DNA from: Talaromyces rugulosus
Taxonomy: Eukaryota > Ascomycota > Eurotiomycetes > Eurotiales > Trichocomaceae
DNA length: 64,000 nucleotides
Assembly: GCF_013368755.1 (NCBI RefSeq)
Contig: NC_049566.1
Coordinates: forward strand, 3,534,001 to 3,598,000
Direction: 5' to 3'
Part shown: piece by piece, positions 37,011-64,000 of the stretch
Layout of the letters: every line of letters starts with the position of its first letter
Numbering within the stretch: the first letter of the stretch is position 1
Translations under genes and position numbers: made by a program
Notes under the pieces: model-generated
What the model was told of the DNA's origin: nothing
What the model saw: the letters and a program-made list of their open reading frames with translations, nothing else
Databases searched by the model: none

Positions 37011-37140
37011 TAGTTGGACCTGCGGAATCGACGCCCAAAATGACCGCTACGGCGGCCTGTTACGGCGGCATTTCCACCCCGTCCCTCCCATGGAACGCCC
37101 GCCGCTTTAAGGTCGCGTCACGTGTGCCGTACCTGATTCG

Positions 37141-37422
37141 CTAGGGTTAGGGTTAGTCAGTGGTCAGTTCGATCCTCGTCCTGGACCGTCGTCGTGGTCG
37201 TTTGCTTCTGCATCGCAACAGAGCAACTGCGACCGGTCTGGTCGCTCGCTGTATAAGATGGCACCGGTTTCCCCCCATCTGCCGTCCCATCTACCCTCTC
37301 ACCGGCTCCTCTCTCCCCTTCCCTCACCCAACCCCCATCCGTTCCCAGATCGCTAGTAATTCGTAGCGTGAATCACTTCCATTCCCTACTTTCCTCAGAC
37401 CCTTGGCAGTACTACCTTCTCC
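37141..37422 (+). promoter_or_regulatory. Putative captain promoter with telomere-like repeats
   Basis: The gap upstream of the recombinase gene holds TAGGGTTAGGGTTAG (37142-37156), a TATAAG box (37252-37257) and a pyrimidine-rich tract (about 37265-37335). CT-rich tracts upstream of the start are usual in fungal promoters. TTAGGG repeats are bound by Myb-type telomere proteins and can act as regulatory sites. Function here is inferred only. Confidence 0.4.
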
Positions 37423-40087
37423 ATGCCACCACCCTCCCTTCCTCCGGCAAATCCTCAAGACCATCAATACTGGACGGACCCAATTCTCTGTGAAGAAACC
37501 CGAGCCAGGCTCGAATACTTTCGAAGTTTGGGGCGGCTTCCCCCCAACTACAAGCCGAAGACTCTTGAAGGTATTGCCGTTGTTGAACGGTACTGGCGAA
37601 AGTAAGCATTTCACACTCAACCTCTCTGCAGGTCATTCAGATAACTGACAGCCAACAGATATTGCATCCAATCCAAGGAAGAATATGTCGACTATCTTCT
37701 CTCTGAGGACCAAACCATCTATATGAACTTCTTTGACTGGATGCATAATACTTCCCGTAAGAAGCTTCTCCAGTCGTACGACGAATATTGGCGGCGTCTG
37801 GGTCAGTATTTTATCTTGTTCGCCGAACGCCCGATGAATAATGACGTCCACGAACAGATGCGACGAGTATGCGGTTCTCCTTCGTCCTGACTAGATACCC
37901 AACTAACACGGATCATAGTTTCTCAACCAACGGTTTCCCGCTGAACACAAGATCTCTCGACGGATGAAGAAAAAGAACACACTGGATGTGGGTGCCTTCT
38001 GTGTTTTGTACCGCCACCACTGGGTACATTCGAGATTTTTCCGTCATGGGAGCATGGTACTCCAGTTTGCCACGATCCAACTCTGGTCTTCTATTACTGG
38101 GACCCGGCCAGGTGTTCTGCTCCCGCAGAAAGCCTTTCTCCCCAACAACATGTCCCTGGGCAAACGAAAACGGGACCTGACTATGAAAAGTGACCTTCCC
38201 CAATACATTTCGACCAATGACCTTCCAGACTCAGTGTGTTATCGTGATATCGAACTCTTCTATCTCAAGGATCCGGACAGCAACCGTGATGTCCTCTGTG
38301 CCATCATCGAGTTTCGCAACCTGAAAGGTCGGCCTGAAGGCGCTGATGGGTAAGGACTATGCCTTGTCACGTCCAGACCCCGACAATATTAACGCCTGTT
38401 GATAGAACCAAGTTTTTCATGCATGGTGATTATCAGCTGTCCTATTGCCCAATCCTGCAAATCGTCTCGTACGCCTTTCGTGACAACGCCTTCGTCAATA
38501 CTACGCTATCACCGGACATCATATGGCGGATCAAAGTTCCGGGCCGGCTTACTTGTCTTCCGCTGCGGTGGAAGCCAGAGTTGCTAGATACCCCCCTCCT
38601 ACGGCATGTCCACCGAACCGAATACGGCTACGAAGTCGACCCATCTGTACCGATGGCATATGCCTCTAGCCGAGATGCCCTGCGGGAGTTGGGTCGGGAC
38701 GCAAAATTTGAGGACGATGTTACCCACTACATTTATCGGCGCTGGGCTGCAAACGAGGTGAATCGTACGTCTCTAACATGGCGGAATTCTAATTTGGATG
38801 CTATAAATATACTTTGTATCTAACGTGCGATTCACAGGGAATTTCACCAGTCAGGAGCGACAAAGAGTGCTCGGCCAGTCGGGTGACGGGGTTTTCGAAA
38901 GGCACTACCAATCTCAATATATCCAACGCGATCTGCAACATGTGGTCCTGCTCCGGCCGTCTCAGGAAAGTCTCCACCAGGTTGGTGGGAGCATGCTCAG
39001 GAAATGGGATCCGTCTGCTCCCTCCCCTGAACTGACTGAGGTGCAGCGTCGCACGATCTGCCAGGACCCCCGAATCTTGGAGCTCCGGCGAACCAAGAGA
39101 GAGGTGATGGAAGAAATGCGAAGCCTGGCTGGTACAAAGACTAAAGCGAAAGACCTTTTCCCTCATCTCTATCAGCAGCACGAATCGCTGTCGAAAGAGC
39201 TTTCCCAACTGAGGAAAACTTTAGCCAAGGAAACCAAGGAGACCACCAGGAAGGATTATTTTTATAATGCGCCCATATTCGAGGTCGACAGACAGATTAA
39301 CCAACTCCTTGGTCAGGCCGACCCTGAGGACAGTGATGATGACAGTCCCGACCATAAGAAGTGGGAACTACCTGTCCCTAAATACGTCTTTCCCGAGCGG
39401 GCACGGCTTGTTGAGAATTTTTATGGGCCGGATGCAGAGAACTTTGACGGCGACAAGCTTCTTGCAAGACGTATCCAGACGACCAAAGATATGGTTGCGT
39501 TCAGTAAGCTCTGTGAGCCGAATCGGCGGGGCAATCGGGTCAACTGGAATTTCGATGATGACGAGCCAGAGATATCGGAACAGTCATTGATCACTGAAGA
39601 AGAGACTCTCGACTGTCCAACGGATGTTTGCATCATCTGTTACGGTCTATCGCGCCGTTCAGCATCCAACCCGCCTGCACATAGATTTCCTCCTAAGCGA
39701 CAAGATTCTCTCCGTCGTCATCTCATTGACTGTCACCTCGCCAATGCGCACAGCGGAATCCGCTGCACCTGGGAGGTCTGCCGTGACGTTCCCAAGTTCG
39801 TCGAGATCACGGATTTCATGGCCCATGCTCTATACGTGCACGCATACGACGTCGGGGTGCAGGAGAAACATCTTCCGGCAAGGCATCCCGTCGACGGCAG
39901 TGAGCATTCATCTCTGGATGATTCAAAGTATCTTTCCGAATCCGATCGCCATTCCGGCATAGACACTCCCGCTTCCTCCGTCAGCTCCGAAGTGGCGAAT
40001 ATCGACCCTCGCTTGCTCAAATCAAACCCCGCCCCTCCCACGAAATTTTCACTGCGCCGGTCAAAGAGAATTAAAACGTCTCCGTAA
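37423..40087 (+). CDS. DUF3435 tyrosine recombinase, Starship captain type
   Basis: Predicted 808-residue protein from five exons: 37423-37601, 37659-37866, 37919-38349, 38406-38764 and 38838-40087. All introns have GT-AG ends and phases that keep the frame. The DUF3435 domain fills about residues 20-480. Tyrosine-recombinase residues are visible: Arg192 in ITGTRPG, Tyr381/Arg384 in HYIYRRW (box II, Tyr in the usual His place), and Tyr416 in FERHYQS. The C-terminal part has a charged, coiled-coil-like stretch (about 450-530). A Cys/His cluster (about 650-735: CIICYGL, HLIDCH, CTWEVCRD, HALYVHAY) suggests DNA binding. Captains excise and insert Starships by strand exchange at short target sites. 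No inactivating change was found. The start was chosen because its frame joins exon 2 smoothly. The alternative reading is a domesticated DUF3435 zinc-finger gene. Confidence 0.88.
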
Positions 40088-40528
40088 AATACGCCTATTG
40101 CTACTGAGATGCGAGATCGATAATGTCCGCTTTTATACGTGTGTTTCGGTCTGTTCTCTGCACCAACTTGCTTTGTTTCAAGTATATGTTACCCTAGATC
40201 TTAGTATACCATATTTTACCTCGGTATTCTTATGCTTCTGCAATTTCTTGTATTTTCATGCCAATATCTTATAGGGGAGCAGTCTCTGCACTCATTTAGG
40301 GCCCGGCATAATCGTCTCGGGCCTCAGCAGGCAAGATAAATAGCAAATCAAGCTGCCGCTTATGCCACGTAGAAGTTGTGTCCAGCTGGCGGGCAACGGT
40401 GAACAGAGTAATGACTAAGCTCTTTGATTCACTAACGTAATCCACCCCCGAACCGTCACCACCGCCGAGCCGGCACTTCCGCCCAAAAACGCGTTCCATA
40501 ACAATTCTATATAATTCAACGCGTCAAT
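40088..40528. other. Intergenic gap between captain and pogo-type element
   Basis: 441 bp. The captain's 3' UTR probably lies here (AT-rich 40130-40270). The second half is GC-richer and leads into the transposase start. I see no terminal inverted repeat of the downstream transposon and no gene. Confidence 0.5.
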
Positions 40529-42195
40529 ATGCCACCAATTCGCAATAAAAATCATAAAAATTCTCAGGAACAAGAAGGCCGAATCTTATTAGCCATTTCT
40601 GATTTGAAAAATGAAAAGATTCCTAATATTGGACGAGCTGCAAAAATTTACAATGTTCCTCGAACAACTCTGCAAGATCGACTAAAAGGCACTCAACAAA
40701 GATCTCAAACACGCGCCAATGGCCATAAATTAACTGAATATGAAGAGGAATCGCTTGTTAAATGGATATTGGATCTGGATAAGCGTGGATTACCTCCTCG
40801 GCCATCTCTTGTACAAGAAATGGCCAATATTCTTCTTACACAACATGGAAATCAACAGGTTGGAAAGAATTGGGTATACAAACTGGTTCAGCGTCGCTCA
40901 GAGCTCAAATCTAGATTTTCACGAAGATACAACTACGAGCGTGCTAAATGCGAGGATTCCAAGATAATCCAAGAGTATTTTGACCGCGTACGAGAGGCTA
41001 TATTAGAATATGGCATCTTACCGGAAGATATCTACAACTTCGATGAGACTGGCTTCGCTATGGGACTTTGTGCAACTGCAAAGGTTATTACTGGAAGCGA
41101 TCGATATAGCAGACCACATCTATTACAGCCTGGCAATCGAGAATGGGTGACTGCAATTGAGGCAGTCAACTCTACTGGTTGGGCTTTACCTTCGTATGTG
41201 ATTTTCAAGGCAACAAAATACTTACAAGAAGCCTGGTTTGAGACTCTTCCAGATGATTGGAAAATCAATATTAGCGATAATGGATGGACAACAGATAAGA
41301 TTGGTATGGATTGGCTCATTAATCACTTCATTCCTCATACGAATGGCCGTGTAATGGGAAGATATCGAATGCTTATTCTCGATGGCCATGGAAGCCATTT
41401 AACTGCTGAATTTGACCGTACATGCACTGAAAATCATATTATCCCAATCTGCATGCCTCCGCATTCTTCTCATCTTTTGCAGCCTCTCGATGTCAGTTGT
41501 TTTGCTGTTTTAAACGACAATATGGACAGCTTGTTGAGCAGCGGATGAGGCTTGGATTCAATCATATTGACAAAATCGACTTTCTTACTGCATTTCCAAA
41601 GGCCCGCACAATGTCATATAAAGCTGAGACTATTCGGAATGGCTTCGCAGCAACTGGATTAGTGCCATTTGATCCAAATCGAGTTCATCAACAGCTTACT
41701 GTCCGATTAAGGACTCCAACCCCCCCTAGGAGTCGAGGCAGTAACTCACAGTCTTCTTGCTTGCAAACACCTCAAAATCCACGTCAATTTAAGCGCCAAT
41801 TAAGCACAATTAAACAGCGAATAAGCCGGCGTACAAGGAGTCCTTCTGAAGTCATTGATAAGGCAATCAATCGCATGTCAAAAGCTTATGAAATGAGCAT
41901 TAATGAGCTTCTAATTGTACGAAAGGAAGTTCATGATTTACGGGCTGCACATGAGAAAGAGAAGCAAAAACGTGGACGATCTAGGAAACAGATATCTCAT
42001 GAGCAAGGAATTACTAGAGAGGAAGCTCAGGCGCTTATACAAGGTCAAATTGAGGTATCTCAATCTATAACCACTGCTCCAGCTGAGCCTGAGCTACCAG
42101 CTTCGCAAGCACTCGTACGCCGCCAATTTCGGTGTAGTGAGTGTAATATTCTTGGGCATAGAAGGCCTCAATGCCCTAATCGTACTAGTAATTAA
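40529..42195 (+). pseudogene. pogo/Fot1-type DDE transposase, one frameshift
   Basis: Tc1/mariner-superfamily transposase in two overlapping frames. The first (40529-41548) has an N-terminal helix-turn-helix (about residues 15-60, RAAKIYNVPRTTLQDRL) and a CENP-B-type binding region (about 70-140). The DDE domain follows, with Asp172 (NFDETGF), Asp285 (LILDGHGSH) and Asp321 (LLQPLDV). The frame is lost near 41510 in a short run of A, consistent with one missing base. The second frame continues with the domain end, a basic stretch and a CX2CX4HX4C zinc knuckle (CSECNILGHRRPQC) at 42126-42170. All catalytic residues remain. I find no terminal inverted repeats, unlike the copy at 50470-52353. Confidence 0.88.
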
Positions 42196-42337
42196 TTTTT
42201 TGTATATAATTAGTCAAATCCAGGTAATTGTTCTCCTGTGACACAAAGTGATTGTCGTGTACAAGGGCTAAAGCGTGAGGAAGATATTCCCGCCAAAGTC
42301 TTCGTTTGGTGTGGTGATTATCTGGAAATATATTCTG

Positions 42338-42676
42338 TACGTCACGAACGCAGACCAGATCCCTGTATTGTCGGCACAAAAAGTCATAATTCGGCTAGTA
42401 TCTCTAATCCGAATAACAAGACAAACATCAGTATTGCACAAGGCACTTATTTAATATGTCTTCTTATCGGCGATTGTTCTTGTTGCTGTGTAGCACGCAA
42501 TCAACTTATAATCCAGATACATGCTAGTCTGTTAGGATCCAAAGTGTCTCTGGGAGTACGCTTGTTCTTCATTACCCTACAATAATATCTGCTAGAGAAA
42601 TTGACAAGTACTTTGTCCAAATAGCGCACCGCTCCATACAGAGACAATACAGGGATCTGGTCTGCATTCGTGACGT
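42338..42676. repeat. 35-bp inverted repeat with 269-bp loop
   Basis: Arms at 42338-42372 and 42642-42676 are complementary except for one base. Each arm contains GCAGACCAGATCCCTGTATT or its complement. The loop and flanks hold no gene I recognise. It may be a rearranged duplication of a decayed gene or a small fold-back element. Confidence 0.7.
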
Positions 42677-42783
42677 ATTTGATATTTCGCACCAACCTCT
42701 ATATCAAAGCTAATTCCAACAGGATTCGTGCTGAAAGGAGACTCCACAGGATTTCTCTGGCAGAAATATATTTCTTGCCGGAA

Positions 42784-43416
42784 TCATCCTGCCAAACCAT
42801 GATAGTCCGGACCAAGGGCTTTTTCTCCGCCTGCTAGTGCTCGTTGGTACATCATCTCTGCCTCTTCTAACTTTCCCGAGTAGAGATTTCCAAGGTTATT
42901 GACAGTAGTCAAAGTAGATGCGTGATCTGGACCAAGTGCCTTTTCTTTGCCTGCTAATGCTCGCTGATACATTATCTCTGCCTCTTTCAGCTGTCCCTGC
43001 TTAGAGTAGAGATTCCCAAGATTGTTGAGAGTATTCAGAGTAGATGTGTGATCTGGACCAAGTGCCTTTTCTCTGCCTGCTAATGCTCGCTGATACATTA
43101 TCTCTGCCTCTTTCAGCTTCCCCTGATTAGAGTAGAGAATACCAAGATTGTTGACAGTATTTAAAGTGGATACATGACCTGGACCGAGTGCCTTCTCTTT
43201 GCCTGCTAGTACTCGCTGATTTACTATCTCTGCCTCCTTCATTTTTCCTCTGATCAGAATAGAGATTCCCAAGGTTGTTGACGGTAGACAAGGTGGATGC
43301 GTTGTCTGGACTGGGTGCCTTTTCCCTGGTAGTGCACGGTTAACTTGTTGCTGAGCCATTAGTAAGCAGTGACTCATTTTGCACGTTCTGAAACATACGC
43401 GGGTCAATAGCCCCAA
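42784..43416 (-). pseudogene. Tetratricopeptide-repeat fragment (NLR or kinesin-light-chain type)
   Basis: About 210 residues on the minus strand with at least four 42-residue repeats of the form EAEIMYQRALAG-EKALGPDH-STL-T-NNLGNLYS. This is the TPR_10/TPR_12 type that forms the C-terminal sensor region of fungal NACHT or NB-ARC proteins. Near 43250 and 43320 the repeat pattern shifts frame, so the first repeat is read out of frame. No NTPase domain lies upstream: 43417-44433 has none. The frame also stops in mid-repeat at 42784. I read it as a broken remnant of an NLR-like gene, but an independent TPR protein is possible. Arrays of near-identical repeats like these often recombine. Confidence 0.7.
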
Positions 43417-44433
43417 TCCAGGACATCATTATTGGTTATATGAGCTTAGCCAAATCACATTGATCAGCCAACATTGTATATGCTATTATATTAAAATCCA
43501 AGACATCATTGGTTAACACCCCATCGGCCGTAGTTCAAAAGATGGGGGTGGAGACGGCGATCATCATGGCCCAGGGTTGCAAACGAAATTTTTTGCTCCA
43601 TTGATGCTGTAGACCCTGCAATCCATGTGACCTAACTTGTCAAACTTCGGGATCTTGGCACTTGCTTAATAATAGCGCGGAAATGATGCAAATTGGGGGT
43701 AAAAATATGTGTCAAATTGGTAAAATCTACGAGCATGGGATTCTAATTTACATGGCAATTGTATCGGTTTATATAGGCGTTTCCTCAGTAGTTTGATCCA
43801 ATCGCATAATTCCAATTAATTCAGGGGGATCAGCAAATTACGTTCCCAAGCAGGATAAGCTGCCTAGTGACGAATTGGGACCGATTCGGTTAATAAGCAC
43901 CCTGACGGTTGACACCACGCGAGAGTTTGGCTGCCCGAGCAGCCAGATTCGTGTTGGAAACGAAGCTCCTGGGACAATTTGGGAGTATATCTGCGGCTCA
44001 CTAGCTGAGCGATGAGTCCTTAAGGGTATCACGGCCACTACAACAGCTAGGGCAGCAGGAAAACGCTCTAGCATATACACACCAGCTTATTATTTCATTA
44101 ATCTTTTCATCATTTAGATACACTGTTACTTCATGTACACAGGACCGGAGCTGGCGGTCATGATTAGGACACGTGCCGCATAGCTGCCTGTGGGGCGGCT
44201 GGGTCGGTTATATGACATAATCAAATCAAATCGACACCACGCGAGAGATCCTTTACCGCGTCAGTGTCGAATAGCTTCAATTAGAACAGAATCGAATAAT
44301 ATGACTTTATCAGCTGGTTACTAGTCTACTTGTATGCACATGTGCAAGAAGTGTACCCATAGAAACAATAAAAAGTTATGTTTCGCCTATAAGGAAAGAT
44401 ATATATTTCTCTCTAAACGAAATGTAACAACAA
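43417..44433. other. Intergenic region, no recognised gene
   Basis: About 1 kb of mixed composition. The 15-mer GACACCACGCGAGAG occurs twice (about 43910 and 44232). A short open stretch on the minus strand (43838-44080) has no recognisable features. I see no NTPase or effector domain that would complete the TPR fragment. Confidence 0.5.
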
Positions 44434-44625
44434 AGGGCAATAGTCGATAGCCTTGAGTCTGTTTGGGCCCCACGAAGGGATTTGTATGTCTGACGGGGCC
44501 GAGAAGAAGTAGGCATAGAGCAGTACACACCAAGCCCGGCCAGAACGGACAAGGTCAGGAGGCAGGAGACACATCGTTGCAGACGGGCAGTCAGACACAC
44601 ACAAAGCCGGGTCAACACGGCTACA
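44434..44625 (+). repeat. Dispersed repeat, copy 1
   Basis: A stretch of about 190 bp, present again in the same orientation at 53005-53195, with scattered substitutions and small gaps. Shared landmarks are TAGTCGATAGC, CACGAAGGG, TTTGTATGTCTGACGGGGCC and CACAAAGCCGGGTC. It codes for nothing obvious and ends without inverted repeats. Confidence 0.8.
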
Positions 44626-44784
44626 TACGGATCTTTCTAAGTATTTATCTGTCTCACACGCTAACTGAACAGGAATGAGTTAAAAATCCCCGAAATCATA
44701 TTCGATCCAACTCTATCCCTGAGTCCGCATGTGTGTCTATTGAGTATGCTATTTCACATCTAGGGCTTTAAGAGAATCTCTAAG

Positions 44785-45800
44785 ACGGGCCCTGTGCTGG
44801 ACTCTGTGGCGAAACTCTATAGTCTTCGCGTTCCTGATGGCAAAGGGCAATAAAAGGTGAAACTCAAAGACGTACTCCTGGATAAATATGTGTTCTGTCA
44901 GGTGGACTGGGAGACGACGGAATATCGAATTGTCCTGGGGAAGAGGATGACCGCGTCGACCTTAGGATCTCAAATGCGCCGAGTAGAAATCACTGGTTTT
45001 GAAGTTATTGTTAAGCCCTACTGTCTTCGGTATGTTGGAGCGAAGGCGTTCAATAACAGCGGTCAGTACCTTTTTCGTTCTTTTGTGTGGCAGACCGCAG
45101 CTAACCTTCTGGATAGAGGAAGTCTCAGAGGCCCTCCAAAATGTTATGTTGCAGCACCGTGATATCTCTACATCTGTCCGACACTACGACGTCGATGTTG
45201 ACGCCCAGGACATCGTGCGTAAGACCGGTTCTTAAACGGAGTTGGTACGGTTTGCTCGTTCATTAAGCGCGTCGATTGACCCAAACCGACCTTTTTGGCT
45301 GTCTCCAGAAGAATCCAGATCCCTCAATATGCTTCCAGAGGTTTGCGCACGACGGATACCGTCACCAGACGGAAACAGAAATGGAACGACCGAAAAGCCA
45401 AGTTCGAGCGCGCCTGCATGGCCTGTCACGCTCGCTTTGGCTCCCTGGACGAAGTGACGCTTTCCCAATACCACCGTCCGTTATGGGAGAAACTGCAACG
45501 TTTCCAGGCACAAGCCAAGGAAGCGAAGCAGAGATATGACCGGGCTGTTCGTGAACTGCGCAACGAGAAGCAACGACAGCGGAACCGCCGGATCCGAGAG
45601 AACCTGCAGCGTTATCGGGACGAACAGTCCGTGATCGACTTGGAATGCCAACTGGCAGGGATCACGATCGATACCAAGGCCATGGAGACCTTGGATCGCC
45701 AGGATTCCATGTCTGCGCAACATCTGACCTATATTGAGAGCATGGTGGCATTTAAAGCAGACACGAATCAAGAGCTCAATGGGGGAAAGACGGCTGACAT
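44785..45800 (+). pseudogene. Second DUF3435 recombinase, 5'-truncated and broken
   Basis: Only the C-terminal part of a DUF3435 protein remains. 44785-45060 reads KLYSLRVPDGKGQ, stop, KVKLKDVLLDKY. After a frame change, 45090-45235 gives ALQNVMLQHRDISTSVRHYDVD, the captain-type active-site tyrosine segment. It is preceded at about 45005-45060 by VIVKPYCLRYVGAKAFNNSG, where box II would lie. An in-frame TAA at 45233-45235 interrupts KTGS/TELVRFARSLSASIDP. Another frame change near 45370 leads to a highly charged coiled-coil tail (KEAKQRYDRAVRELRNEKQR) up to about 45800. The N-terminal half with the first catalytic arginine is absent. It belongs to a different DUF3435 subgroup from the gene at 37423. 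Confidence 0.8.
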
Positions 45801-45864
45801 ACATCACGCTATTGTGAATTTTAGCTCCCGTAATATTTTCTTCGTCGGCAGGACATCAAAGATT

Positions 45865-46446
45865 TCACTTACTCTCACCCGGTTTGCCAGTCAGCGATAC
45901 AGTTACTGGCGCTTCGTCTGAGCCAAAGAGAGTGTCCAACAGACCAAGCCCACCAAGCCTCAAGCCAGCCGCAACCCCCGTGCAAAGAGAACTCTGCCAA
46001 CCAGAAGTAAAGGGACACTGGGAGATGACTGCTTTGACATTCTTGTCAGTAGCAGCCATCTCGATAACATGCCCTCCGCTGAACGATGTTCCAAAAAGGC
46101 CGACTTGGTTCGGATCGACGATCTCTAGTTGTCGCGTATATTTAATTGCAGATTTCCAGTCCTCTTGCTGCTTACGCCAGTCAATCAGCCCTCTTGGGAG
46201 GCCCTCTGATCCTCCGGTGCAACGGTAGTCGAAGACAACAGACGTGTATCCCATCTGATTGAAAATATCCGCGTATACATCGAGCTTGAGTTCCGTCGTG
46301 CCGCCCAGGCCGTGGGCCAAAACGATGGCTGGTCCCGGGTTCGATGAGGTAAATATTTGAGATGGGTAGAGCCATCCGCACATGAAGTCCTTTGAGCATG
46401 AAGCAATTCGGATATCCATACGACGTTGGATCCCTGCAACGGCCAT
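45865..46446 (-). pseudogene. Alpha/beta hydrolase, C-terminally truncated
   Basis: 193 residues from ATG at 46446. The fold's early landmarks are present: oxyanion region LAHGLGG (43-49), FDYRCTGGSEG (72-82), and the nucleophile elbow GLFGTSFSGG with Ser121. The chain ends after VTVSLTGKPGE, just where related fungal hydrolases continue about 100 residues to the catalytic Asp and His. A GTAAGT donor-like sequence sits at the break, but the DNA beyond belongs to the convergent DUF3435 remnant and I find no continuing exon. It is probably a truncated gene whose 3' end was lost when the two fragments were joined. Substrate unknown. Confidence 0.7.
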
Positions 46447-46995
46447 GTTGCAATATTCTCCTCTTCTCGTTCTATGCTCTCAGAAGGGAGACGGCGGTTC
46501 TCAGGTTTTTCTGTCCACTACGACATGTGTCCTGAGTGATCCCTCGGCTATCCCCTTACAATATGGCTTCAGCTTTTGCTAGGAAAGGCCGTACTAATTA
46601 GCTGCGGCAGAATGAATCTTGCGAACTATGTGGGGCCGAAGGCTCGCAAGCAATGCCAGATGACTTTGCGGCGTAACATTCATCCGACTTTGTCTGAACC
46701 CCGTAATAGCTGCAGTAGCTGCGGATTAACCTGTCGCTTCTCCATGTACTCAGGTACCGAGGCCCCGCGGGTGGAGCAACAATGACCTCACCTTCGATAC
46801 AACGGCGGAAGTTCCCTGTGTCAACGAAGTATCTCGTTCTCAAACCCTAGACCCTGAATAACAAATGCCGAGGTCAGACTAGAGATAATCCGTCTACTTC
46901 AATAAATATGTTCGCTAGACGCTTTTGAGACAGACTGCCTACCTTTCCTACATTCTGCATTTTCACCATATCGGGCGCCCACTATGGTACACTAG
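46447..46995. other. Intergenic region, no recognised gene
   Basis: About 550 bp between the hydrolase start and the LTR fragment. It would contain the hydrolase promoter. Short open stretches in both directions lack recognisable features. Confidence 0.45.
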
Positions 46996-47061
46996 CCTCT
47001 GTGAGGCTAGTGTAGCGAGGTGCGCCATCTGGTGCGCTCCGAAGTTCTCACGGCCTCACAT
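46996..47061 (-). repeat. LTR-end fragment of the left-hand Ty3 family
   Basis: About 65 bp matching the first part of the 211-bp LTR (for example 4259-4323), with CTGGTGCGCTCCGAAGTTCTC against CTGGTGCGTCCCGAAGGTCTC. The true LTR terminus, TGTGAGGC on the minus strand, is at 47061. The other end is fused to an 11-bp inverted copy, making a hairpin ACACTAGCCTC-TGT-GAGGCTAGTGT at 46986-47010. It shows the same retroelement family visited the right half of the window. Confidence 0.75.
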
Positions 47062-52247: not shown

Positions 52248-52308
52248 TTTTTGATGAAAACGAAGTTTTGAAGTGAGTGGTGGGTTGAAAAGTCGAAAGA
52301 TTTTGGTG

Positions 52309-52353: not shown

Positions 52354-52355
52354 TA

Positions 52356-53195: not shown

Positions 53196-53350
53196 GTCCA
53201 ACATCTCACTGGGCCATATGGCCGGGGCCACAGAGCCCATCCAGCCAGATGGCTACCGACCGATACCACAGCAAGCCATGCAGCCCAGCAAGCCATGGAG
53301 ACAGCGCCCCTTGCCCGGCTGGACCGTGAAGCTTACGGTTATTAAGAAAA

Positions 53351-56300
53351 CTACCTTCTAGACAAGATCTGTTGGCTCGCCCTTCGAATGATGAATTTTG
53401 CAGCAGCCTGCTCCATCGCGTCGGTGACCTCCCCGTCCTCAGGAAAAATCACGAAGATCGAGTTGCTCCCATCATCCCGAGCTGACTGAAGACACTCCAC
53501 TGGGGTCATTGAACGCATCCGTGCGTCTCGAAGGTTTGCGTAGTAGTGTTCAACGAAACGGCGGGCTTCCCGCTCCACCTGTAGCGGATCTGACGCACCG
53601 AGATCGACTTTGGTCCTCTCACTCCACCGGAGTCCCGTCCAAACCCGGAAAATAATGACACGATTTGATTGCTCGTGAGAAATTGGTGTGCTGGGTGATC
53701 GTTGCTGTCGAATCCTGTTGGCCGCTTTTTTTCTACGATCATTGCTACGACCATCGGGAACGCGAAGACCGGTGTCCGCCGTCTCGTTGTCTGGCACCAG
53801 GTCAGTGGGAGGGACCTCTGGAGGCGGCTGATGAAAAAGCTCGCTAATGTTGTCCGAAGGCGAGTTGTCAACGTCGATTTGAGTATCACGCCTAGCTGGT
53901 TTTTGGCGACCTTTGGTAGGGGGCCGTTGATATGGGGCGTGGCGAGCTGTTCGAGCAAAACGCTTTCGGTTAGTCCTGCCAAGAGGGTGGGTTAAAGAAT
54001 CTGCATCATTTTCGCCATGTGCTGGAGTAGAATGGCTCGCCAGTCCGGCGAGCGGCTCTAAAGATCGGCCTTCGTCGGGTGAGATATGATCTTCATCGTC
54101 GTCGTCTTCGTCACTAAAGAGATTACCTGCAGCCCGAGTCCTGGTAAAACTATCTTCGGATTCCTCTACGGATCGCTGGGCGCTTTCCACTTGTGTCGTT
54201 GCTTTCTGTTGACGCGATGCTTCGTCGGCAGCTTTCTGCTCGGCTGGTAATTCCCGACGGGATTCCCCAGGCGGAGGGCTTCGGGGCTTATCTCTTCCAA
54301 CAGGCGTGTCTGCGACTGGCGCTGACTCCACTGTTGCTGGTGCTGTCCTTTCTGCTGGTTGTTTTTCAACGTAGTGTTCCAATTGATCACCATGGGAAAA
54401 CTCGAATTGGGCCTTACCAGTTTCTAGAATCGTTTCACAGTTATCCTCTTCCGAATTTGGTGACTCGCGCAACCGGGTAATGAAGTTTTGCATAGAAGAT
54501 GAGGGAACGGGTTCAGATGAGGCCTGTTGCTCTATTAACACCGGCGGTGGGGCACTCTGGCCATTTTCTAATTGGGAGAGCGTGTTGGCTCTCTGCTGTG
54601 CCACCAGCTCTTCTGTCGGGAGTTCTAGTCCAGGACCGGCTGACGGATCTTCTAGTTGAGAGCTTTCCTGTTCCGTGGACCCTGGAATCCGATCAACATC
54701 CAACTGTGTGCCTCGATTCTCTGCAAAGATGGGTGATTCAGCAGGGACTGCATCAACAGCTGCAAGACGAGACCTTTCCGCAGCCCGTCGCTTAGACGCT
54801 GCGGTCTTCAATGGTCGTCGATCAGCCATTTGCTTCTTCCTCGGACCTAGCGTTAACCGGTGATTCGCTATCCGGTCGTCTGATGGAAGCTCTGGAAGGG
54901 TGTCAGCTTCTTCGACTGAGACGTCATCTTTACCCTGATTGAGTGGAGGGGAAACTGCAACTCCTTGCACCGGTTGATTTGATCCAACGTTGTCATCGAT
55001 GATTCTTTCCACATAATTGTCAGGACTCGGTTCTGTGACCGCTTCTTGTCTTGTTGTATTCTCCGTAGAATCCGCGCTCGATTGGTTTGGTGTTTGGGGT
55101 TGGCCGACTGGTGCTGCTATGAACTGTTCAGTTGCAGTATGCTGGACAGTTTCCAACAGCGCTCCTGGGTGAGTTGATGCATCGGGGTGTTGTTGATCAG
55201 TGTTAGTAGCAGCTATCATTTCAGTATTTCCTTCTTCAGTATCATTGGCTATACCATGATCGGGCTGCGTTGGACTGCGTTCGTACTCGTTGAAGATGTC
55301 TAACTCGTTCATATCTCCTAGTGTGGAGGCCCTGCCATCAGAGAGACTCATCCCGTCTTGATCCACCAACTCAGTTCCAGCGGTAGATCCTTCTCCACCC
55401 TCGCCCCTAGTTCGTCTTTGCTGACGGCGAAGTTGTCTCTGCTGCCTCCGTTCCCGCTTCTGTTCCCGCCTCTGACTTCGGCGTACTTCTCGAGCTTGCC
55501 GCTGCCGCCGCCGCTCCTCTCGCCTGTGGTCCCCCTGATCTTGCTGATCGCGCTCATCTGTTCGATGATCAGGTCGACCGGTAGCATGGTCTGAGATATC
55601 TGCCATTTCGCGTTCATCAAATAGGTTATGTTCTTCAGGAAAGGACAAGGATGACGAATGTGAGCGAGGGGAGTGGTGGCTCGAGACGTCTTCATCCAGC
55701 GGAATCTGCGACGGCTCGGAAGGCTTACCAAAAAAGGCGAAATACACACATCGTCTGACAAACAACGCAGACACCTCATTATCGGAGGACGGGCCTTCCA
55801 TATGATCGAAGAAAAGGAATTTCCTCTCTTGCTCATGAGCCTCTATGCAGGGCTGTCCGCACCGACGCCGGCGAGGGACGGTCGGAAAGGCACGTTGATG
55901 GTATGAGGGCTGGGAGTCGGTAGGAATGGCTTCTTGAAACAATTCAAGCATACGGTCAATAAGGGACTCAATAGAACGATAGCGATAGTCGTCACGTTCT
56001 CGCGCCTCCAGGAGAGCTGTACGAGCAAGCTGACGGTCCGGTGATTCCCGATTAATCTGCAAGATTTGTGGAGATGTGAAACCCAGCTGGCTAGCCAGGA
56101 CGGCCATCCGATGGACAGTACGTTGGTCGGCACCCTGGAATTTGGCCTTCACCAGACGCTTACCTTTCTGAACAGCGTTGGGCATCTTAGGATAATGTCG
56201 GAAGGCAAACAGCCAGAGTTGTCGATATCCAGCGTCTCTGGCTTCCTCAGCCGTCCCAGAACATTCTCGAAACCCCGTTTCCGACTCTTGGACTCGGTAA

Positions 56301-57488
56301 TGACCGCGAACATGTTCATTTGGGTTATACATGTGTTTCATGGCAGAATACATCGTGGGACGACGGAGTCCGGCCAGATCCACTAATCGTTTTAAGCAAC
56401 TCGCACAAGCCTCCAAGTAGGAAATATCTTTAAAAAAGGTGTACAGCGAGGGGATGAGTTCTTTTCGACCCCGTAACTTCCTCCAGATAGCCTTTCTTTC
56501 AGAGCGGTCAAACTTACTGAATGCCTCGCCACTTAATACGAGACCTTTGACTTTTCTGCGATCCAGCCCTCCGGGGACCAGAAGCTGGAGTTCCTTAATT
56601 GTAGCATAATCGATCTTCTCCATTTGGTTTCGGTCGTCACGGACGAGAGACGACCAAAAATCTTTGACGTATTGTAGGTAGTGGACAATTTCCTTCGCAG
56701 TCAGCATGGAGATATAGGTACGGGGGAAAGACCAACCTCGTCGCACTTGAGGGCAATGATTCGAGGTAAATTCCCAATGCTCATCACTTTCCACAGACCG
56801 GGAATCGGTAACAATGCATCAAAGGCGGAGCGAATAGAAGCATTTTCTGGTTGCGACAGCTGTCGCATCCGCTTTTGTTTATTCGGTGATAATCGGGCCA
56901 GCCATCGGTCTTCAAAGCGGCTACTGGCTTCATACTGATACTGGCGCACCTTGCGATACACTTCGCCATCGTTGGGTTGAGCTTCATTAGAATATTCCTC
57001 GGTCAATTCTGTTTGTAGCTCACTGCTCATGTCTGTTGAATGATCAGCCCCAACCTAAACGAGATAGCGAAATACAATGTACCGTTCAAATATAGATCAA
57101 CCGTCCACCATCGCTCATAGGGTGCCAAGAACTCGTTGCCTGCCCTAAGGCGATGCTGTCCATGGAGGCAGACTATCTGGCCCACGGGGAAATCCAGATG
57201 AACATGACGGTCAGACTGCTGACCCATCAGGGAGCTCAGGTTCGTCTGCTGGTCACTCAAGGCACGCATGAGATTTTCTTTCGAGATAGTTGCAACGACA
57301 TGATTTCTTAGTGCAATTCTGTCACAGTTTTCTTTCTCGAAAATGCCACAAAGTCTGTCGACATTATCAGGTTTGTATTCCAAAGGTAGAGATATTTGGC
57401 TGATTTTGATTTTTGCAGTGCCCTGGTATTTCAGGTGTCGTTCTTTTGCCAATATTACCTCTGCACTTGTAAACATAGACCGATCCAT
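53351..57488 (-). CDS. DUF3723 protein (Starship accessory type)
   Basis: Predicted 1347 residues from three exons: 57083-57488, 56737-57032 and 53351-56692. The introns are 50 and 44 nt, and the phases fit. The N-terminal part (about 1-330) carries the DUF3723 family signature, including VCLHGQHRLRAGNEF (107-121), WWTVDLYLND (127-136) and DGEVYRKVRQYQ. Next comes a helical region to about 500. A long disordered, charged region follows, with an Arg/Gln-rich block at about 620-665 that looks like a nuclear or nucleic-acid-binding segment. The conserved end contains FRVWTGLRWSERTKVDL and SIFVIFPEDG. The biochemical role of the family is unknown. It recurs as cargo in Starships. The start is at MDRSMF, because upstream codons only translate the 14-bp repeat array. 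No break was found. Confidence 0.9.
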
Positions 57489-57592
57489 GTTGCAATTAGA
57501 GTGGATTTCTAGTCTAACTGGTTGATAGAAATTTGGAAGAAGAAAGGGGGAGGGGGATACATGGGTATTTATCCTTGCGGCGGCACGAACTA

Positions 57593-57732
57593 AGCAGCCG
57601 AACCAGAGCAGCCGAACTAGAGCAGCCGAACCAGAGCAGCCGAACCAGAGCAGCCGAACCAGAGCAGCCGAACCAGAGCAGCCGAACCAGAGCAGCCAAA
57701 ACAGAGCAGCCAAAACAGAGCAGCCAAAACAG
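57593..57732. repeat. 14-bp tandem repeat, 10 copies
   Basis: Unit AGCAGCCGAACCAG repeated ten times without spacing. The last three units carry the variant AGCAGCCAAAACAG. The array lies between the divergent DUF3723 gene and pseudokinase, 105 bp upstream of the DUF3723 start. It may sit in the 5' leader or promoter of one or both. Confidence 0.97.
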
Positions 57733-57927
57733 AGGAGTGTTCCTGCTACCCACTACGTCTACAAGATTCCTCTCGATTCTCCTCTGGTCTCTTCTATATC
57801 GTCATAACTTCGCATCCCTGCTCCTTTGCAGTTTTCATAGATACTTGGATTTTACACTCTCCTCAGCAGATCCCTTATCTCAACCTCCCCACACCTAAGC
57901 CAAATCCTCACTTCAAGAGATACCAAT

Positions 57928-58905
57928 ATGACTACAGAACAAAACGTTGCTACGAAGCTCACTGGAGGATTAAAAAGATTAGGCCTACCGCAGGTCACTC
58001 TCCGAGGGAAAAGCAACGATCTCTTACTTGGCTGGGACGAATCGCCGTGGAAAACCTTCCATCACGTATTCAGTTGTGACCTCGCTGGCTCGGTTTCCAT
58101 AGTAAACTTCCGTACTCACCCATCTCGATTAAGGGCGATACGAACCTTCAAGAAAGATGAAGCCGACATAATGTTGGAAAAGCTCAAGATTCTGCGACAG
58201 GAAAACGTTCATCTTGCCCGCGAATACTACAACTATGGGAATTCGGTCTATGTAGTATTTGATGATCTTCCTCTTACCTTGAAGCAAGTGGTCGCTTGTG
58301 ATTATTATCCAAACGATCACGAAGTGTCCGCTATCCTTGCACAGGTACCGTCGTGGTCCCTGAAACCAATCATATGTGCTAACCAGTAAAAGATTCTCAG
58401 CGGTCTATCTTATTTACATACACACGGATTTGATCATCAGTCGCTGACATGCTCCAATATCCTGCTCGGCATGGATGGCACTGTTCAAATTGGTAATCTA
58501 TCCTTCTTTTATTAGATAAATAGCTGACGGATTTCGGTAGCGGGCCTGGAGTTCTGTGTGAAGAGTAGCCCGAACCAGTCGGACTCCATCGAATCCGTCG
58601 CAACGATAGCCACCTTACTGATGCAGAAATATGAAAAGTCAAGCGGTTCAAAAGGGATAGGTGATATTGAGCGCTGGCCTATCGATTCTCAAGCCTTTCA
58701 ATTCCTACAAGAAACGGATAATGTTGAGACTGTCGACGATTTAAAAGAGGTATGTCAGGACTGTATTGCACCAGAATTAGAGTCTTTAACCATATTATAG
58801 TATATTCTTGCGTCTGGGAAATATTCAAAGGAAGTCCTGGCTGGGTTGGCTCGCTTCACGCTAATTTCTGCGCGGACATCTTATTCCTACCCGCCGAAGC
58901 CTTGA
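57928..58905 (+). CDS. Protein-kinase-like protein, probable pseudokinase
   Basis: Predicted 276 residues from four exons: 57928-58344, 58393-58492, 58541-58749 and 58801-58905. Introns are 48-51 nt and the phases are consistent. The fold is recognisable: a beta-rich N-lobe with LRAIRTFKKDEA where VAIK is expected, then LSYLHTHGFDHQSLTCSNILL (residues about 145-164) for the HRDxKxxN loop, and VQIAGLEF for the DFG segment. The lysine is Arg, the catalytic Asp is replaced (HQS for HRD), and DFG is lost while the loop Asn remains. Catalysis is therefore unlikely, and a scaffold or regulator role is inferred. It is transcribed divergently from the DUF3723 gene with the repeat array between them, so the two may share control. 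Confidence 0.78.
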
Positions 58906-59502
58906 AGTTCCTCGCAACAACTGTCAGTAATTTTCATGGTTATATATATCTGTCTAGATTGTTAGTTTATTCAGTTAGATAATATTACAACCACATGTAT
59001 TCCACGCATAAATAAAGAATATCTCCATATCCAATAAAGAAAACATCGGACCCTGAGACAATAATTTCTACAGCACCAAGTCTCGTCTGCAATTCTGTGA
59101 CGGAATTTTTAACTCAAAACTTAGCGATGATGTCATCAATCTGTTTTCGAGGTGGGTCTCGCAAAATAAGGTTCGGAGGACAGAAACTCGTGTGCCTAGA
59201 TCTCGATCTGCCTTTTTCCGAAAAGAACATTCTAGAATAGTTGGCTAAGATCATGACCTCACGGCTGCTTAGTTCGATGTTTCATTTTACACGAACCTAA
59301 TTAATGCTATGAAAAGCCGTACACCTACTATCCAACAATAAAATCAATATGAATTCCTACCTAGGCTGCATGACATGAAAATAACGAGACACGGACGAGA
59401 GGGAAAGCAAGAAAACAGTGCAGTGCATGCAATGGGCGTTGATATCTAGCGATATCATGTGCAAGGCCCAAGGTATCAATCGTGACCACACCAGCGCAAT
59501 AC
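58906..59502. other. Gap between convergent pseudokinase and ferric reductase genes
   Basis: About 600 bp holding the 3' ends of both flanking genes. Moderately AT-rich, with no further gene recognised. Confidence 0.5.
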
Positions 59503-61313
59503 CTATGCAACAATTTCAACTGGCTGGTATTCTACTTCTCGCATTTCCACTTTCTTGTCTAGATATTCGCGGACAATTTTTCTCAAATCATCCCTCAATC
59601 CATCTGAAACACAAGCTACGACACTTTAGCATGATGTGAAAACATCCATTCTACTGAAAATCTCACCTAGTACAAGCATGTCCCCTATTTCTTCTTGGGT
59701 ATTGGAAACTCGTTCAATATAATCCCCCGATGCTTCTGCAGATATTATTTGGTCGTAGCTGGGCTTCCCCTTGTACAGGAACGCACGATTGTGCTTCCCG
59801 AAAGATCGTTTGTCATCTTCGGTCGATTCCACGTAGAATGACATTTCCAATATCTACATGTCCGTTAGTATCGGATATACAAAGGGATATGAGCTAACAC
59901 ACATAACCATTGTCGAGAATGTCGTCCGTCAAGAGACTATTAAGCAAGGGTTGGGCTTCGCGAACGAGATCTGTGCTGTTTAGCTCCATATCTTCAGCAG
60001 TACATCATCGGCTGTTTACCTAAAGTTTTGGTTTCCCACAGCAAATGCACGCGACGTATTCGCGCTGTCGATGTATTGTAACCATATAGAAGCTGTTTGA
60101 TATAGGGTACCACGCCAGCTATCCCGAAGCCGCTAGCAATAACGAGAACTGTTTCATATTGATCTACTGCGTAGCTGAGACCGAAGGGGCCAGTCACGAG
60201 TGCAGAAAACGAAGCTGAACCACTGGGAGAGGCGTGTTTGTATATTCTAGAGGTGAAACCTCGACGGACTTGAACAAAAAGTTCCAACGTATCTTGCTTC
60301 CCTGGGGACCAAGAGGTAACCACAAAAGGGTGGGACTGCAACCAGGAAGAAAAGCTTACCGAGGGCATCCATAACTGAATATACTGTCCGGCTCTGATCT
60401 CAAGCGGTCTCCCCAGGGTAACAGTCATCTTGACGACCTGTTCAACGTTTTCGCTGTCTCCTTGTTTTGCGAGTTCCTTATTGGTTTTATTAGGCTCTGC
60501 TTTTTTACATATAACCATCGCTCGGGGGTTTGGCCGCGACGACATGAAGCCGTTTTGATATAATAATTTTCCACACTGGTAAAGCGTGGTCGATCCGAGA
60601 ATCGCCAACGGAACATAGAGATACAGCCGAGGGAAGGCGGAATCAGATGGTATGTGCTTCCAGATGGCGTAAAAGGAGACGGCTGCGAGTCCCTGATGAG
60701 TTCGCAAGAATAATTCGTAAACGTGTTTGCGGAATATTGGAATGGAAAATATCATGATTGTTCCCAGAGTGGCCGCGCCCTTGGAACGATTAGCAGATAG
60801 AGATTTATGATGGGAAAGTTGACATACAACGATAGCAAACACATTTTCTTGTCTCTTGAGCGATAGGTTTTGCTGTATTGATAAGGCGACCAAGACGTGG
60901 AGTGCCACCAAACTACTGACCATCCATCCTGACGCACGATGGATCCACTGGCAGGTCTGCAAGGAAATTCCAAGGATGTCTGCCAGTAAACTCTGATGGA
61001 CAGTCATAAACAAGGGAATCATATTGATTAGAGCGAGCCTTCCTGTTTTAAGGTTGGCTTCGTCCCAGGACTGGACTTGGAACAACATAAGGAACAGGTT
61101 AAGAGCTCCATAGACCAGACATATGATGATACCTGCTCTAGTCCATGGCCCAAACCATCGATGGCGATTAAGAAAATATGGGTAAAGGAGATGCCTTGAC
61201 ATCCATACAGAGATCGGATGAGTCAAACGAGTGAAAGATGGTCTAGCTCGAAGCACAAAGAGTAGTAAAAGAATACCTCCAGCGGCGACCCCAGAGATGT
61301 TAATCGCATCCAT
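59503..61313 (-). CDS. Ferric/cupric reductase-like transmembrane oxidoreductase
   Basis: Predicted 544 residues from five exons: 60828-61313, 60020-60779, 59903-59991, 59667-59853 and 59503-59615. It has an N-terminal membrane helix, then a ferric-reductase transmembrane domain (about 90-240) with haem-ligand histidines in VHQSLLAD, WIHRASGW, ALHVLVAL and RTHQGLAA. An FAD-binding module contains HPFVVTSW (about 310), and an NAD(P)-binding module starts at VIASGFGIAG (about 370). The end EVEYQP is typical of the family. Such proteins move electrons from NADPH across the plasma membrane to Fe(III) or Cu(II). The 48-nt intron at 60780-60827 is in frame and has no stop, so it is easily mistaken for coding. 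The gap 59992-60019 is only 28 nt, too short for a normal intron: either a tiny intron or a frame lesion. Confidence 0.85.
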
Positions 61314-61591
61314 CGTAGATCAGCTTCAGTTGCAGTATCCGTGTTGCAATTAGTGCGGTAGATAGGAATGTTCCACGGAGCGGTGCCAAGTTCTTTATAA
61401 ATAGTTGAACATACCGAAACTTAGGTATTGCATTAGCACTCTGGTCGGGTTCTGTTGAAACATAGCAGTAAAACAGAGCACCAAAACAAAGCCTAAAATA
61501 CATTGACTCGGAAATATAAATGAACCATGATTCCCCTTCTCAAAAAGAGACTAAATAATAGCCTTCAGATCAAGCTAAACCGTGCTACATA

Positions 61592-61918
61592 ATGGCCAGT
61601 GATCCACTTTCCAAGAAACGTCGCCTGGATACTCCCAAAGCCAGGTGCCAGCAAAGAGCTCGACTCAGGAAGACTCTTTTCAAGAAATGTCACCATTACA
61701 GCATCGAGTGTGATGCAGATGTCTATATGGTCCTGCGGCTAAAAGGATCCGGTCGGATCTTTACTTTTCAGTCTGACTCTACTGACGGATTCAGCCCGTC
61801 TCTCCGAGATCTGGTACGCAACCCTTCTCATTTAGAATCCTGTTACTGTAAGATCCTAAGTGTAGCAGGAGTACCACTGGCAGAGACCGTCGAAAACGAC
61901 CTCAAAGGACTATATTAA
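61592..61918 (+). CDS. Small MADS-box (SRF-type) protein
   Basis: Single-exon, 108 residues. Residues about 15-70 read as an SRF-type MADS box: basic KARCQQRARLRKTLFKKCHHYS followed by ECDADVYMVLRL and GRIFTFQSD, matching the KKA-E-S-LCDAEV-L pattern. The long C-terminal partner domains of full MADS factors are absent. It could bind DNA as a dimer or interfere with larger MADS proteins. It starts 278 bp upstream of the divergently transcribed ferric reductase start, so the two may be co-regulated (inference). Confidence 0.7.
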   Translation: MASDPLSKKRRLDTPKARCQQRARLRKTLFKKCHHYSIECDADVYMVLRLKGSGRIFTFQSDSTDGFSPSLRDLVRNPSHLESCYCKILSVAGVPLAETVENDLKGLY

Positions 61919-62496
61919 TAAATGCGTTACATCACCAAAGGACGGACGCAAGAGCATGACCACGCCAGCCTAGACATGGAACCTGAAAGTTCGTGTTGAA
62001 GTCCGAGACTGGTGGCTGTATATTTCATGTTTTAGTCTGCTATATATGAATGAGTGGTTAGTTACTGTAGCAAAGCTTATCATCTAGATAGAGCCGTCTA
62101 AGTTTGGCAAGTCCTATTTTCTTATGTTGCTGAGACTCGGAGGATGCGGTGGTACTGTCTGTCAGGGATCTCTTCTTACGTCATCCGTCTGATTTGTGAC
62201 CAGCAACTTATAATATCGTATTGAGTATGAGTAAACGGAGGGACCAAGTGATCGTGCCGGCACCGGCAATCATGTTGCTGTTCTTTACAACACCACAGAA
62301 TCTCTCAGCATCTGTCTTCCCGTTAATATCTATTGACTATAAACAATTGAAAATATGCCCAACATAGGAAACATAATAAAATCAAACTGTGGTAACATAT
62401 TAAGAGAGCTAATGGCATTAAGCAAGAAAAAGAAAAACGAAGTAGCCGCCTGCAGCCACGAGAATGTACCCGCAGATCAACCAATCAACAACTAAC
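61919..62496. other. Intergenic region, no recognised gene
   Basis: About 580 bp of mixed composition between the MADS gene and the minisatellite. No coding frame or repeat seen. Confidence 0.45.
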
Positions 62497-62604
62497 AACC
62501 GATCTGCAATTGACAAACCAATCGGTAACGAGAAACCAGTCGGTAACGAGAAACCAATCTGTAATTAACAACTGATCTGCAACTAACAACCGGTCCGTAA
62601 CTTA
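62497..62604. repeat. Degenerate 18-19 bp tandem repeat
   Basis: About six imperfect units, such as AAACCAATCGGTAACGAG, AAACCAGTCGGTAACGAG and AACTGATCTGCAACTAAC. The array ends exactly at the stop codon of the minus-strand gene (TTA at 62602-62604), so it forms the start of that gene's 3' UTR. Confidence 0.75.
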
Positions 62605-64000
62605 GTCACGATGCCCCAAGTATTGTAGTAAGCTCTTTGTTGCAGTGTCCATTGCGGTCTTTGTATCAACCGGATCGGGGTTTTCAAGTGGAACGCTGAA
62701 CTTCAAGTATAAGGGGTCTATATGGCCGGTCAACTCTACAACTTGATTTGTAGACATCGGTAGATTAGCAAAAAGTGGTTGCATGAATGGGTCCAGTGAC
62801 TGGAAATGAGCAATAGCGTCTGGATACGCGTTTCTCATGTAGCTGATCAAGAGCTCCAGTGAGCTATCCGGGAAATTAGAGCGATTGTCACTGGTATAGC
62901 GTAAGCATCCAGTTTGTCAACTTAGGGGTCATGACATACATATGAATCGCCTCAGCTAGTCCACAGGTTAGAACAGTAATGATTCCAATACTACTTGCAA
63001 GTTTCCACCATCGTTTGCCGTAATTTTTGCAGTCCGAGACATGGCCCCCGTCGCACTTCTTGCCATTTACCTCCAACTCACCAACGTTGGCTAATATTGA
63101 CTTGTGGTATACAGCTGTCAAATCATTACCGGAACGCGGGATAGTTTCCCCATTTTGATCTCTTGTCTTGAGCCGTTCCACGCCAATATTGACAAAGATG
63201 AAAAATATAACTTGTGCCAGGCGACGATGCACCGATTTTTGTTGTTCGTCATTTTTGGTTTCCATTAGAAACCTAAACATGGTGGTAACAATTTCTGCTG
63301 AAGGGAAATTGTGACAAGGTGGAAGGGAAATCCCATGAGTTCGGTAATCTTCCAAGAGCCACCCTTTTAAGTCATTCAAAAGGATACCTGTGTCACTAAT
63401 TATTTTATCACCTGCTTGATAAATAATGTGCAACTTCTTATCATTAATAGGTCGTTTGGCACGTTTGGCAAGAAACCTAAGCAGATTTAACCGCACTGCC
63501 TCGTCCGGCAACGAAAGCTGGCCATTTTCATTGGGATCACCACTGCACGGCATCTCTGATGGGCTCAATGCTATCTGATTTGCAGACGTTGATGCTGTTT
63601 GGCTTTTCGTTCTTTTTCTAGACTTTTCTGATATGCGAACCTTTCTTTTAAGTGCACTATTTGTGAACTTTGGGGTGTGAGAAGGGTTTGACTTGGGAGA
63701 TGGATACGACGCAGCCGCGACGTCAATGGCCAAGTCATCGTCATGTCTGGTGCTCCTTTTTGGATCTTCACCAATATCCGGTACTCTTGACTCGGAAGTA
63801 AAGCCCAACCTAGACTGAGCATTATTAACGAGACCCTGGTGACCTCCCTCGCGCAGATCGTGGTTTGCGGACGCATCGTGCTTCAACCAATCAATTTCAA
63901 GAAGTCCCTCGCTCCCAGTTGGCATTATGTCATTTAGGTACGGTGTCTTCTCGCTCTCAGTTCCTATAAGAGTCACGCACATTAGCAGCACGATCTGGGA
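62602..64000 (-). CDS. Unknown fungal protein, 5' end beyond window
   Basis: Two exons visible: 62940-64000 (open to the window edge) and 62602-62890, joined by a 49-nt intron with a GTATGT donor. About 450 residues are seen. The first ATG candidates are at 63982 and about 63925, but the frame is open further, so the true start is uncertain. The N-terminal half is hydrophilic with a lysine/arginine-rich block (LKRKVRISEKSRKRTKSQT) that could be a nuclear signal. Then come a helical region and two hydrophobic stretches (LAQVIFFIFVNIGV and LASSIGIITVLTCGLAEAI), the second a likely membrane helix. I do not recognise the family. Confidence 0.6.

Follow-up and report, generated by a model that had tools for sequence, protein, structure and literature searches.

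The question raised by this 64,000-bp stretch of Talaromyces rugulosus DNA (hereafter the window; contig C6, positions 3,534,001–3,598,000) was whether the genes that begin near position 37,000, headed by a DUF3435 tyrosine recombinase, form one mobile unit, and where that unit ends. One T. rugulosus assembly (35.76 Mb in six contigs) was searched, and sites beyond the window are given either on their contig or in window numbering carried on past 64,000 along C6. The RPB2 protein, in keeping with this host, showed 95% identity to Penicillium occitanis, 94% to T. atroroseus and 100% to a JGI protein. Window positions 36,998–64,000 were read, with a probability of about 0.93, as the left part of a complete Starship, here called ship A (48,641 bp). 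In the available part of PMC12153272, Starships are described as elements of ~20–700 kb with short flanking direct repeats and a recombinase gene, the captain, at the 5′ end. Ship A and a sister copy, ship B, are thus of a known kind; the possible link between the landing site of A and repeat-induced point mutation (RIP) is unusual.

Limits of ship A and its sister ship B

The GC content per kb was 0.12–0.14 over 32,001–37,000 and 0.52 from 37,001. A sequence-only reading of the window had noted a sharp composition boundary here, which was borne out by the step from 0.14 to 0.52, and the precise edge was placed at 36,998. The same reading had the unit extend beyond 64 kb. This was also found: ship A ended at C6:3,619,638 (window numbering 85,638), 21.6 kb past the window end, and the right direct repeat followed at C6:3,619,639–3,619,645. 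The 7-bp repeat TTTACTA flanked ship A on both sides, and likewise ship B, which occupied C6:32,932–82,155 (49,224 bp), 33 kb from the C6 telomere, with the same ends as ship A. In a search of the genome with window positions 37,011–47,000, the first 3.2 kb matched ship B at C6:32,945–36,197, from the first base of the query.

The left ends of both ships read TTTACTACTAGAATAGTT[G/A]GACCTG and the right ends read CACAGGTCCCGCGTTTACTA. With up to three mismatches allowed, the 5′ motif AGAATAGTTNGACCTGCGNAATC had five matches in the genome, exact only at A and B (two to three mismatches in the other three), and the 3′ motif had two, both exact, at A and B. For a comparison of the ships, the window, extended by a further 100 kb, was set against C6:1–100,000. 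Identity was 91.0% over the left 3.2 kb and 91.5% over the right 2.2 kb. Between these ends lay eight further shared blocks (66–96%), of which seven were collinear and one, 206 bp long, was displaced. On either side, the similarity broke off precisely at the direct repeat. A telomere-like sequence, GGGTTAGGGTTAG, was present at window positions 37,144–37,156, upstream of the captain of ship A, and was not present in ship B.

The captain gene and its relatives

The captain was the first gene of ship A, read inward, and began 425 bp inside the left edge. Its introns were GT-AG, and the spliced five-exon model gave 808 codons without a stop. The protein matched PF11917 (DUF3435) over residues 163–613 (E 8.5e-93), and DUF3435 matches in the exons were found at 38,084–38,335, 38,404–38,769 and 38,837–39,502. 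The gene model therefore agreed with the earlier claim of an intact, inward-reading captain of 808 residues, first after the boundary. The captains of A and B were identical at 752 of 808 residues. Nonsynonymous (dN) and synonymous (dS) divergence was 0.032 and 0.122 by NG86, and 0.036 and 0.093 by YN00 (dN/dS ~0.26–0.39), which indicated that captain A, compared with B, is under constraint.

A protein search with captain A gave 72 homologues with lengths of 0.55–1.75 times the query. No T. rugulosus protein was among them, and hence both captains, in the form modelled here, appear to be missing from the public annotation of this species. The DUF3435 relatives in T. stipitatus, T. amestolkiae, T. 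verruculosus and T. proteolyticus, known here as proteins alone, showed 71–76% identity to captain A, and the nearest protein of Aspergillus fumigatus 67%. The phylogeny comprised 46 proteins, namely both captains and 44 of the 72 homologues (at least 600 aa; P0069–P0072 left out), with no family-labelled captains. Captains A and B were sisters (100/99) inside a clade of the Talaromyces proteins (100/100), nearest to T. proteolyticus. The captain phylogeny proposed as a check could thus be answered in part: the position among Eurotiales DUF3435 proteins was strongly supported, and the tree gave no family name. The captain lineage appears to be at home in Talaromyces, and nothing in the tree calls for a recent transfer from another genus.

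Twenty-five DUF3435 matches were found genome-wide, most of the further ones with stops inside. The further genes or relics, possibly belonging to other ships, lay at C2:6.80–6.88, C4:3.25, C5:4.22 and 5.31, and C6:3.31 and 4.87 Mb. Beside the telomere of C6 (2,128–7,149), a 1674-aa open frame resembled by eye a telomere-linked RecQ-type helicase.

Target repeats, RIP and the order of events

The flanks of ship A (32,641–36,983 and from 85,631) matched adjoining stretches of one repeat copy at C6:16,881–22,728. Because this copy, free of RIP, carries Ty3_capsid, protease, RVT_1, RNaseH, rve and Chromo domains (Ty3-type capsid, protease, reverse transcriptase, RNase H, integrase and chromodomain), the target of ship A is a Ty3/Gypsy retrotransposon, and the insertion site falls in its capsid-side frame. 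Joined together, the flanks of A gave an ungapped TTTTACTA. A search with 1 kb surrounding the site returned 41 genomic matches, 11 of them listed at 100% (query included). Twenty-two copies besides the reference were examined at the site; one (L055) was unreadable, which left four GC-rich and 17 RIP-mutated copies. The reference and all four GC-rich copies read TTTTGCTG. The sequence TTTTACTA was found in six of the 17 mutated copies, and the remaining 11 read TTTTGCTA (4), TTTTATTA (3), TTTTGCTG (2), TTTTACTG (1) and TTTTATTG (1). For ship B, 15 matches to the joined flanks were found. Two were the flanks themselves, and the other 13 were copies that run uninterrupted over the joint. Eight of these 13 were read at the site: TTTACTA in four, one of them relatively GC-rich, TCTACTA in three and TTTATTA in one. 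In the genome searches, the target of A returned no flanks of B, nor the reverse, which means that the ships entered two distinct repeats at an identical 7-bp sequence. The uninterrupted copies represent, for both insertions, paralogous empty sites within the same genome.

Together, both ends, the 7-bp repeat, the intact captain, two non-allelic copies and uninterrupted targets upheld the view that these genes form one mobile unit. Judging from the recombinase superfamily, the captain would excise the ship at its ends and join it into a target with the core TTACTA, so that TTTACTA would then stand at either side, and the cargo would be carried along in this move. It is very improbable that A and B instead reflect a segmental duplication, or ectopic recombination between the subtelomere and the chromosome interior. 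Both ships do lie in repeat-rich DNA of one chromosome, with repeats shared around both, but their similarity stops at the direct repeats, their immediate flanks are different repeats that do not find each other, and each target has copies that run contiguously across the site. On this flank evidence, segmental duplication was rejected.

Several observations tell against reading ship A as a complete Starship. No reliable terminal inverted repeat was found in A, only a GGACCTG-like stretch whose score was reached by 271 of 2000 shuffles and by 453 of 3000 random pairs within A; the score of ship B was reached by 18 of 2000 shuffles. For comparison, the available part of PMC12153272 counts, among 20 Starships, 19 with direct repeats of 2–12 bp and 18 with inverted repeats. 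The structure model of the T. stipitatus captain relative (806 aa, 27-row alignment) had a mean predicted local distance difference test score of 48.6, too poor to show a recombinase fold, and a sequence search of solved structures gave six matches, all weak and irrelevant. Only a single genome was compared, and presence polymorphism among isolates was not seen. Ship A also contains broken genes, namely the TPR piece, the second DUF3435, the second transposase and a DUF7924 gene whose counterpart in B is open. These relics would suit a dead remnant that no longer moves, as would the existence of only two ships of this kind with a captain dS of ~0.1 (no very recent burst) and the position of A in RIP-mutated, probably silent DNA. 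We nevertheless think it doubtful that A is such a remnant, since its captain is open and constrained relative to B and both of its ends are intact.

The RIP signature of the surrounding DNA was strong. Against the copy free of RIP, the left flank of A carried 553 C-to-T changes at CpA, none in the reverse direction and 33 sites kept, and only 21 of the 1336 differences were transversions. The right flank carried 193 such changes, none reverse and 21 kept. The flanks of B were also mutated beside the ship (TpA/ApT 1.20 and 1.22; (CpA + TpG)/(ApC + GpT) 0.62 and 0.66). Between A and B, transitions per conserved site were 0.112 at CpA, 0.117 at CpC, 0.135 at CpG and 0.097 at CpT; there was no CpA excess, and therefore no RIP signature in the ships. 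The CpA differences were mildly imbalanced (C in B 113, C in A 69). The available part of PMC12289983 reports that transposons inside Starship regions of Verticillium are mostly without RIP. The change from TTTTGCTG to TTTTACTA takes two steps, both CpA-to-TpA on the other strand.

The ships free of RIP and the identical, unmutated retrotransposon copies favour an order in which RIP came first and ship A later, landing in a copy that would already have been mutated, and it is plausible that RIP created this landing site. In the alternative order, A landed in TTTTGCTG and both copies of the direct repeat were later changed alike. The density of RIP in the flanks would allow both copies to change, a sharp edge is also expected where RIP follows the limits of the repeat itself, and the target of B needs no RIP at all. 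Against this stand the lack of a CpA excess between A and B despite shared blocks of 2–3 kb at 90–96% identity, and the 11 retrotransposon copies at 100% (reference included), which show that RIP has not been acting lately. In addition, B entered another repeat at TTTACTA, and acceptance of TTGCTG by the captain is unsupported. Mutation after insertion is somewhat unlikely in our view.

The order with RIP first leads to a more general proposal. Counted on both strands, TTACTA had a density of 2.54 per kb in 2-kb intervals that were RIP-positive (110 kb; 279 sites, where base composition predicts 155) and of 0.51 per kb outside them (154 kb; 78 sites, 95 predicted). A captain that needs TTACTA would thus mostly land in RIP-mutated DNA, because the sites are supplied there. 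We tentatively speculate, at somewhat less than even odds, that RIP makes docking sites through CpA-to-TpA changes, for example CAGCAA to TAGTAA (TTACTA on the other strand), and so steers a captain that recognizes TTACTA into dead, RIP-mutated repeats, where the host would bear little cost from an insertion and the ship could persist. A target made by RIP as a necessity for B was rejected, since TTTACTA was also read in the relatively GC-rich copy. The site of B may be original to its repeat, so the case for a site made by RIP rests on one insertion. No statement that RIP makes Starship targets was met in the portions of the open-access literature consulted.

Copies of the two target repeats crowded once per contig, at C1 3.05–3.23, C2 3.01–3.14, C3 3.54–3.73, C4 3.24–3.47, C5 3.49–3.62 and C6 3.31–3.67 Mb, with other copies elsewhere. 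Many of the crowded copies were RIP-mutated, and ship A lies inside the C6 crowd; these crowds may be centromeres. Window positions 1–31,000 were a patchwork of AT-rich and GC-richer blocks (GC 0.20–0.57), and many of the 4-kb pieces had dinucleotide ratios of the RIP type.

Cargo and relation to known Starships

The features of ship A are listed in Table 1. The DUF3723 and ferric-reductase genes that had been read near the captain were recovered with Pfam matches, as were the DNA transposons (two DDE_1 transposases) and the second DUF3435 relic, whose three matches contained stops in two. The relic region (44,626–45,749) was 84% identical to C2:6,805,681–6,806,815. The suggested NLR-type TPR fragment was upheld as to its TPRs, and the NLR label was only indirect: the frame has no NB-ARC or NACHT domain, and ship B has a PNP_UDP-NB-ARC/NACHT-TPR protein. 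The available part of PMC12134995 counts DUF3723, ferric reductase and NLR genes among the Starship cargo classes.

Table 1. Features of ship A and its left flank in window numbering; positions beyond 64,000 lie past the window on C6.
Feature	Position	Strand	Remarks
Left flank, RIP-mutated Ty3/Gypsy copy, outside the ship	32,641–36,997	.	69% to C6:16,881–21,239
Ship A, part in the window	36,998–64,000	+	Probable left part of 48,641-bp ship
Left direct repeat TTTACTA	36,998–37,004	+	Partner at 85,639–85,645
5′ ship end, common to ship B	37,005–37,029	+	Motif AGAATAGTTNGACCTGCGNAATC
Captain, DUF3435 recombinase, 808 aa	37,423–40,087	+	Exons 37,423–37,601, 37,659–37,866, 37,919–38,349, 38,406–38,764, 38,838–40,087
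Nested repeated DNA transposon, DDE_1/HTH_Tnp_Tc5 transposase	40,433–42,212	+	DDE_1 at 40,502–41,548
TPR-repeat fragment, perhaps of an NLR	42,784–43,425	-	TPR matches
Second, broken DUF3435 gene	44,671–45,921	+	Matches 44,671–45,066, 45,119–45,352, 45,331–45,765; stops inside two of three
Alpha/beta hydrolase (S15-like) frame	45,865–46,479	-	Pfam scan
Kelch-type protein frames	47,605–49,276	-	Pfam match in 48,102–48,836, below curated cut-off
Broken DDE_1/Tc5 transposase	50,580–52,061	-	DDE_1 50,580–51,455; Tc5 DNA-binding domain 51,597–52,061
DUF3723 gene	53,351–57,752	-	53,351–56,818 (E 6e-97), 57,027–57,752 (E 5.9e-24)
Open frame divergent from DUF3723	57,841–58,389	+	Counterpart beside DUF3723 in B, 40% over 110 aa
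Ferric reductase frame	59,994–61,319	-	Ferric_reduct, FAD_binding_8, NAD_binding_6
Block common to ship B	61,508–62,094	.	85% identity
YDR124W-like helical-bundle gene	69,547–70,431		Past window
Kinase-like gene	77,492–78,490		Past window
Right-end chromo-like gene	82,652–83,779		Past window; Pfam Chromo E 0.14, below cut-off

Inverted repeats of the nested transposon were not found with the edges tried. In the Kelch region, the frame at 47,605–48,063 had no Pfam match and 48,746–49,276 was outside the scan; the frame divergent from DUF3723 had no Pfam match either. A 277-bp repeat at 43,638–43,914, with roughly a dozen relatives genome-wide and with ends that form an imperfect inverted repeat, is perhaps a miniature inverted-repeat transposable element. 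Among public T. rugulosus proteins, the right-end gene of A matched TRUGW13939_11561 (95% over 99% of the query) and TRUGW13939_10373 (81% over 41%). In the public T. rugulosus record this gene bears the name chromo domain-containing, and PF00385 is present in a relative from T. verruculosus; the chromo-like gene of B gave no Pfam Chromo match over the part that was scanned.

Ship B comprised GNAT-like, dynamin, RNase H, DUF3723, PNP_UDP-NB-ARC/NACHT-TPR, DUF7924 and kinase genes. Common to both ships were the captain, the YDR124W-like gene (97% at the amino acid level), the chromo-like gene and DUF7924. The DUF3723 proteins were ~40–59% identical in pieces, and the ferric reductase of B showed 36–45% identity to that of A with a Pfam match below the cut-off; two other pieces of B scanned for ferric reductase had no Pfam match. 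The DUF3723 genes, their divergent neighbours and the ferric reductases of the two ships therefore belong to the same classes without being near-identical genes. The open NLR-like frame of B (1538 aa; PNP_UDP, NB-ARC/NACHT and 16 TPR stretches) and its dynamin-type GTPase had no recognisable form in A. We infer that A and B descend from one ancestral ship in which the captain end and the right-hand backbone were kept while cargo was exchanged on this constant backbone.

With Starships in general (Hephaestus, Enterprise and Tardis among others), as far as the available parts of the sources describe them, the two ships share the 5′ captain, short direct repeats, a size within 20–700 kb and DUF3723, ferric reductase or NLR cargo, whereas target sequences differ, for example TTAC(N7)A in Hephaestus (PMC12153272). 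Janus, of the Phoenix family in A. fumigatus, has the target A(N3)TTACTA(N2)A(N15)CT, and CHROMO is listed in all five Janus haplotypes in the same available part (PMC12153272). Janus resembles A and B in the target core TTACTA, in a chromo-domain gene (here a chromo-like gene at the 3′ end) and in size, and differs in cargo and in the outer target positions. By eye, the core was present at both sites, the upstream A at ship A only and the downstream A at neither. The target core and the chromo-like gene suggest a possible affiliation of A and B with Phoenix/Janus. In the open-access literature, no paper joining Starship, DUF3435 and captain with Talaromyces was found, nor one joining T. rugulosus with Starship.

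Ships A and B form a closed pair of sister Starships, with each empty site visible in one near-complete genome, and so provide comparable haplotypes. The pair shows cargo of the same classes that differs on a common backbone. If it is true that RIP makes landing sites, then genome defence would shape where giant cargo-carrying transposons settle.

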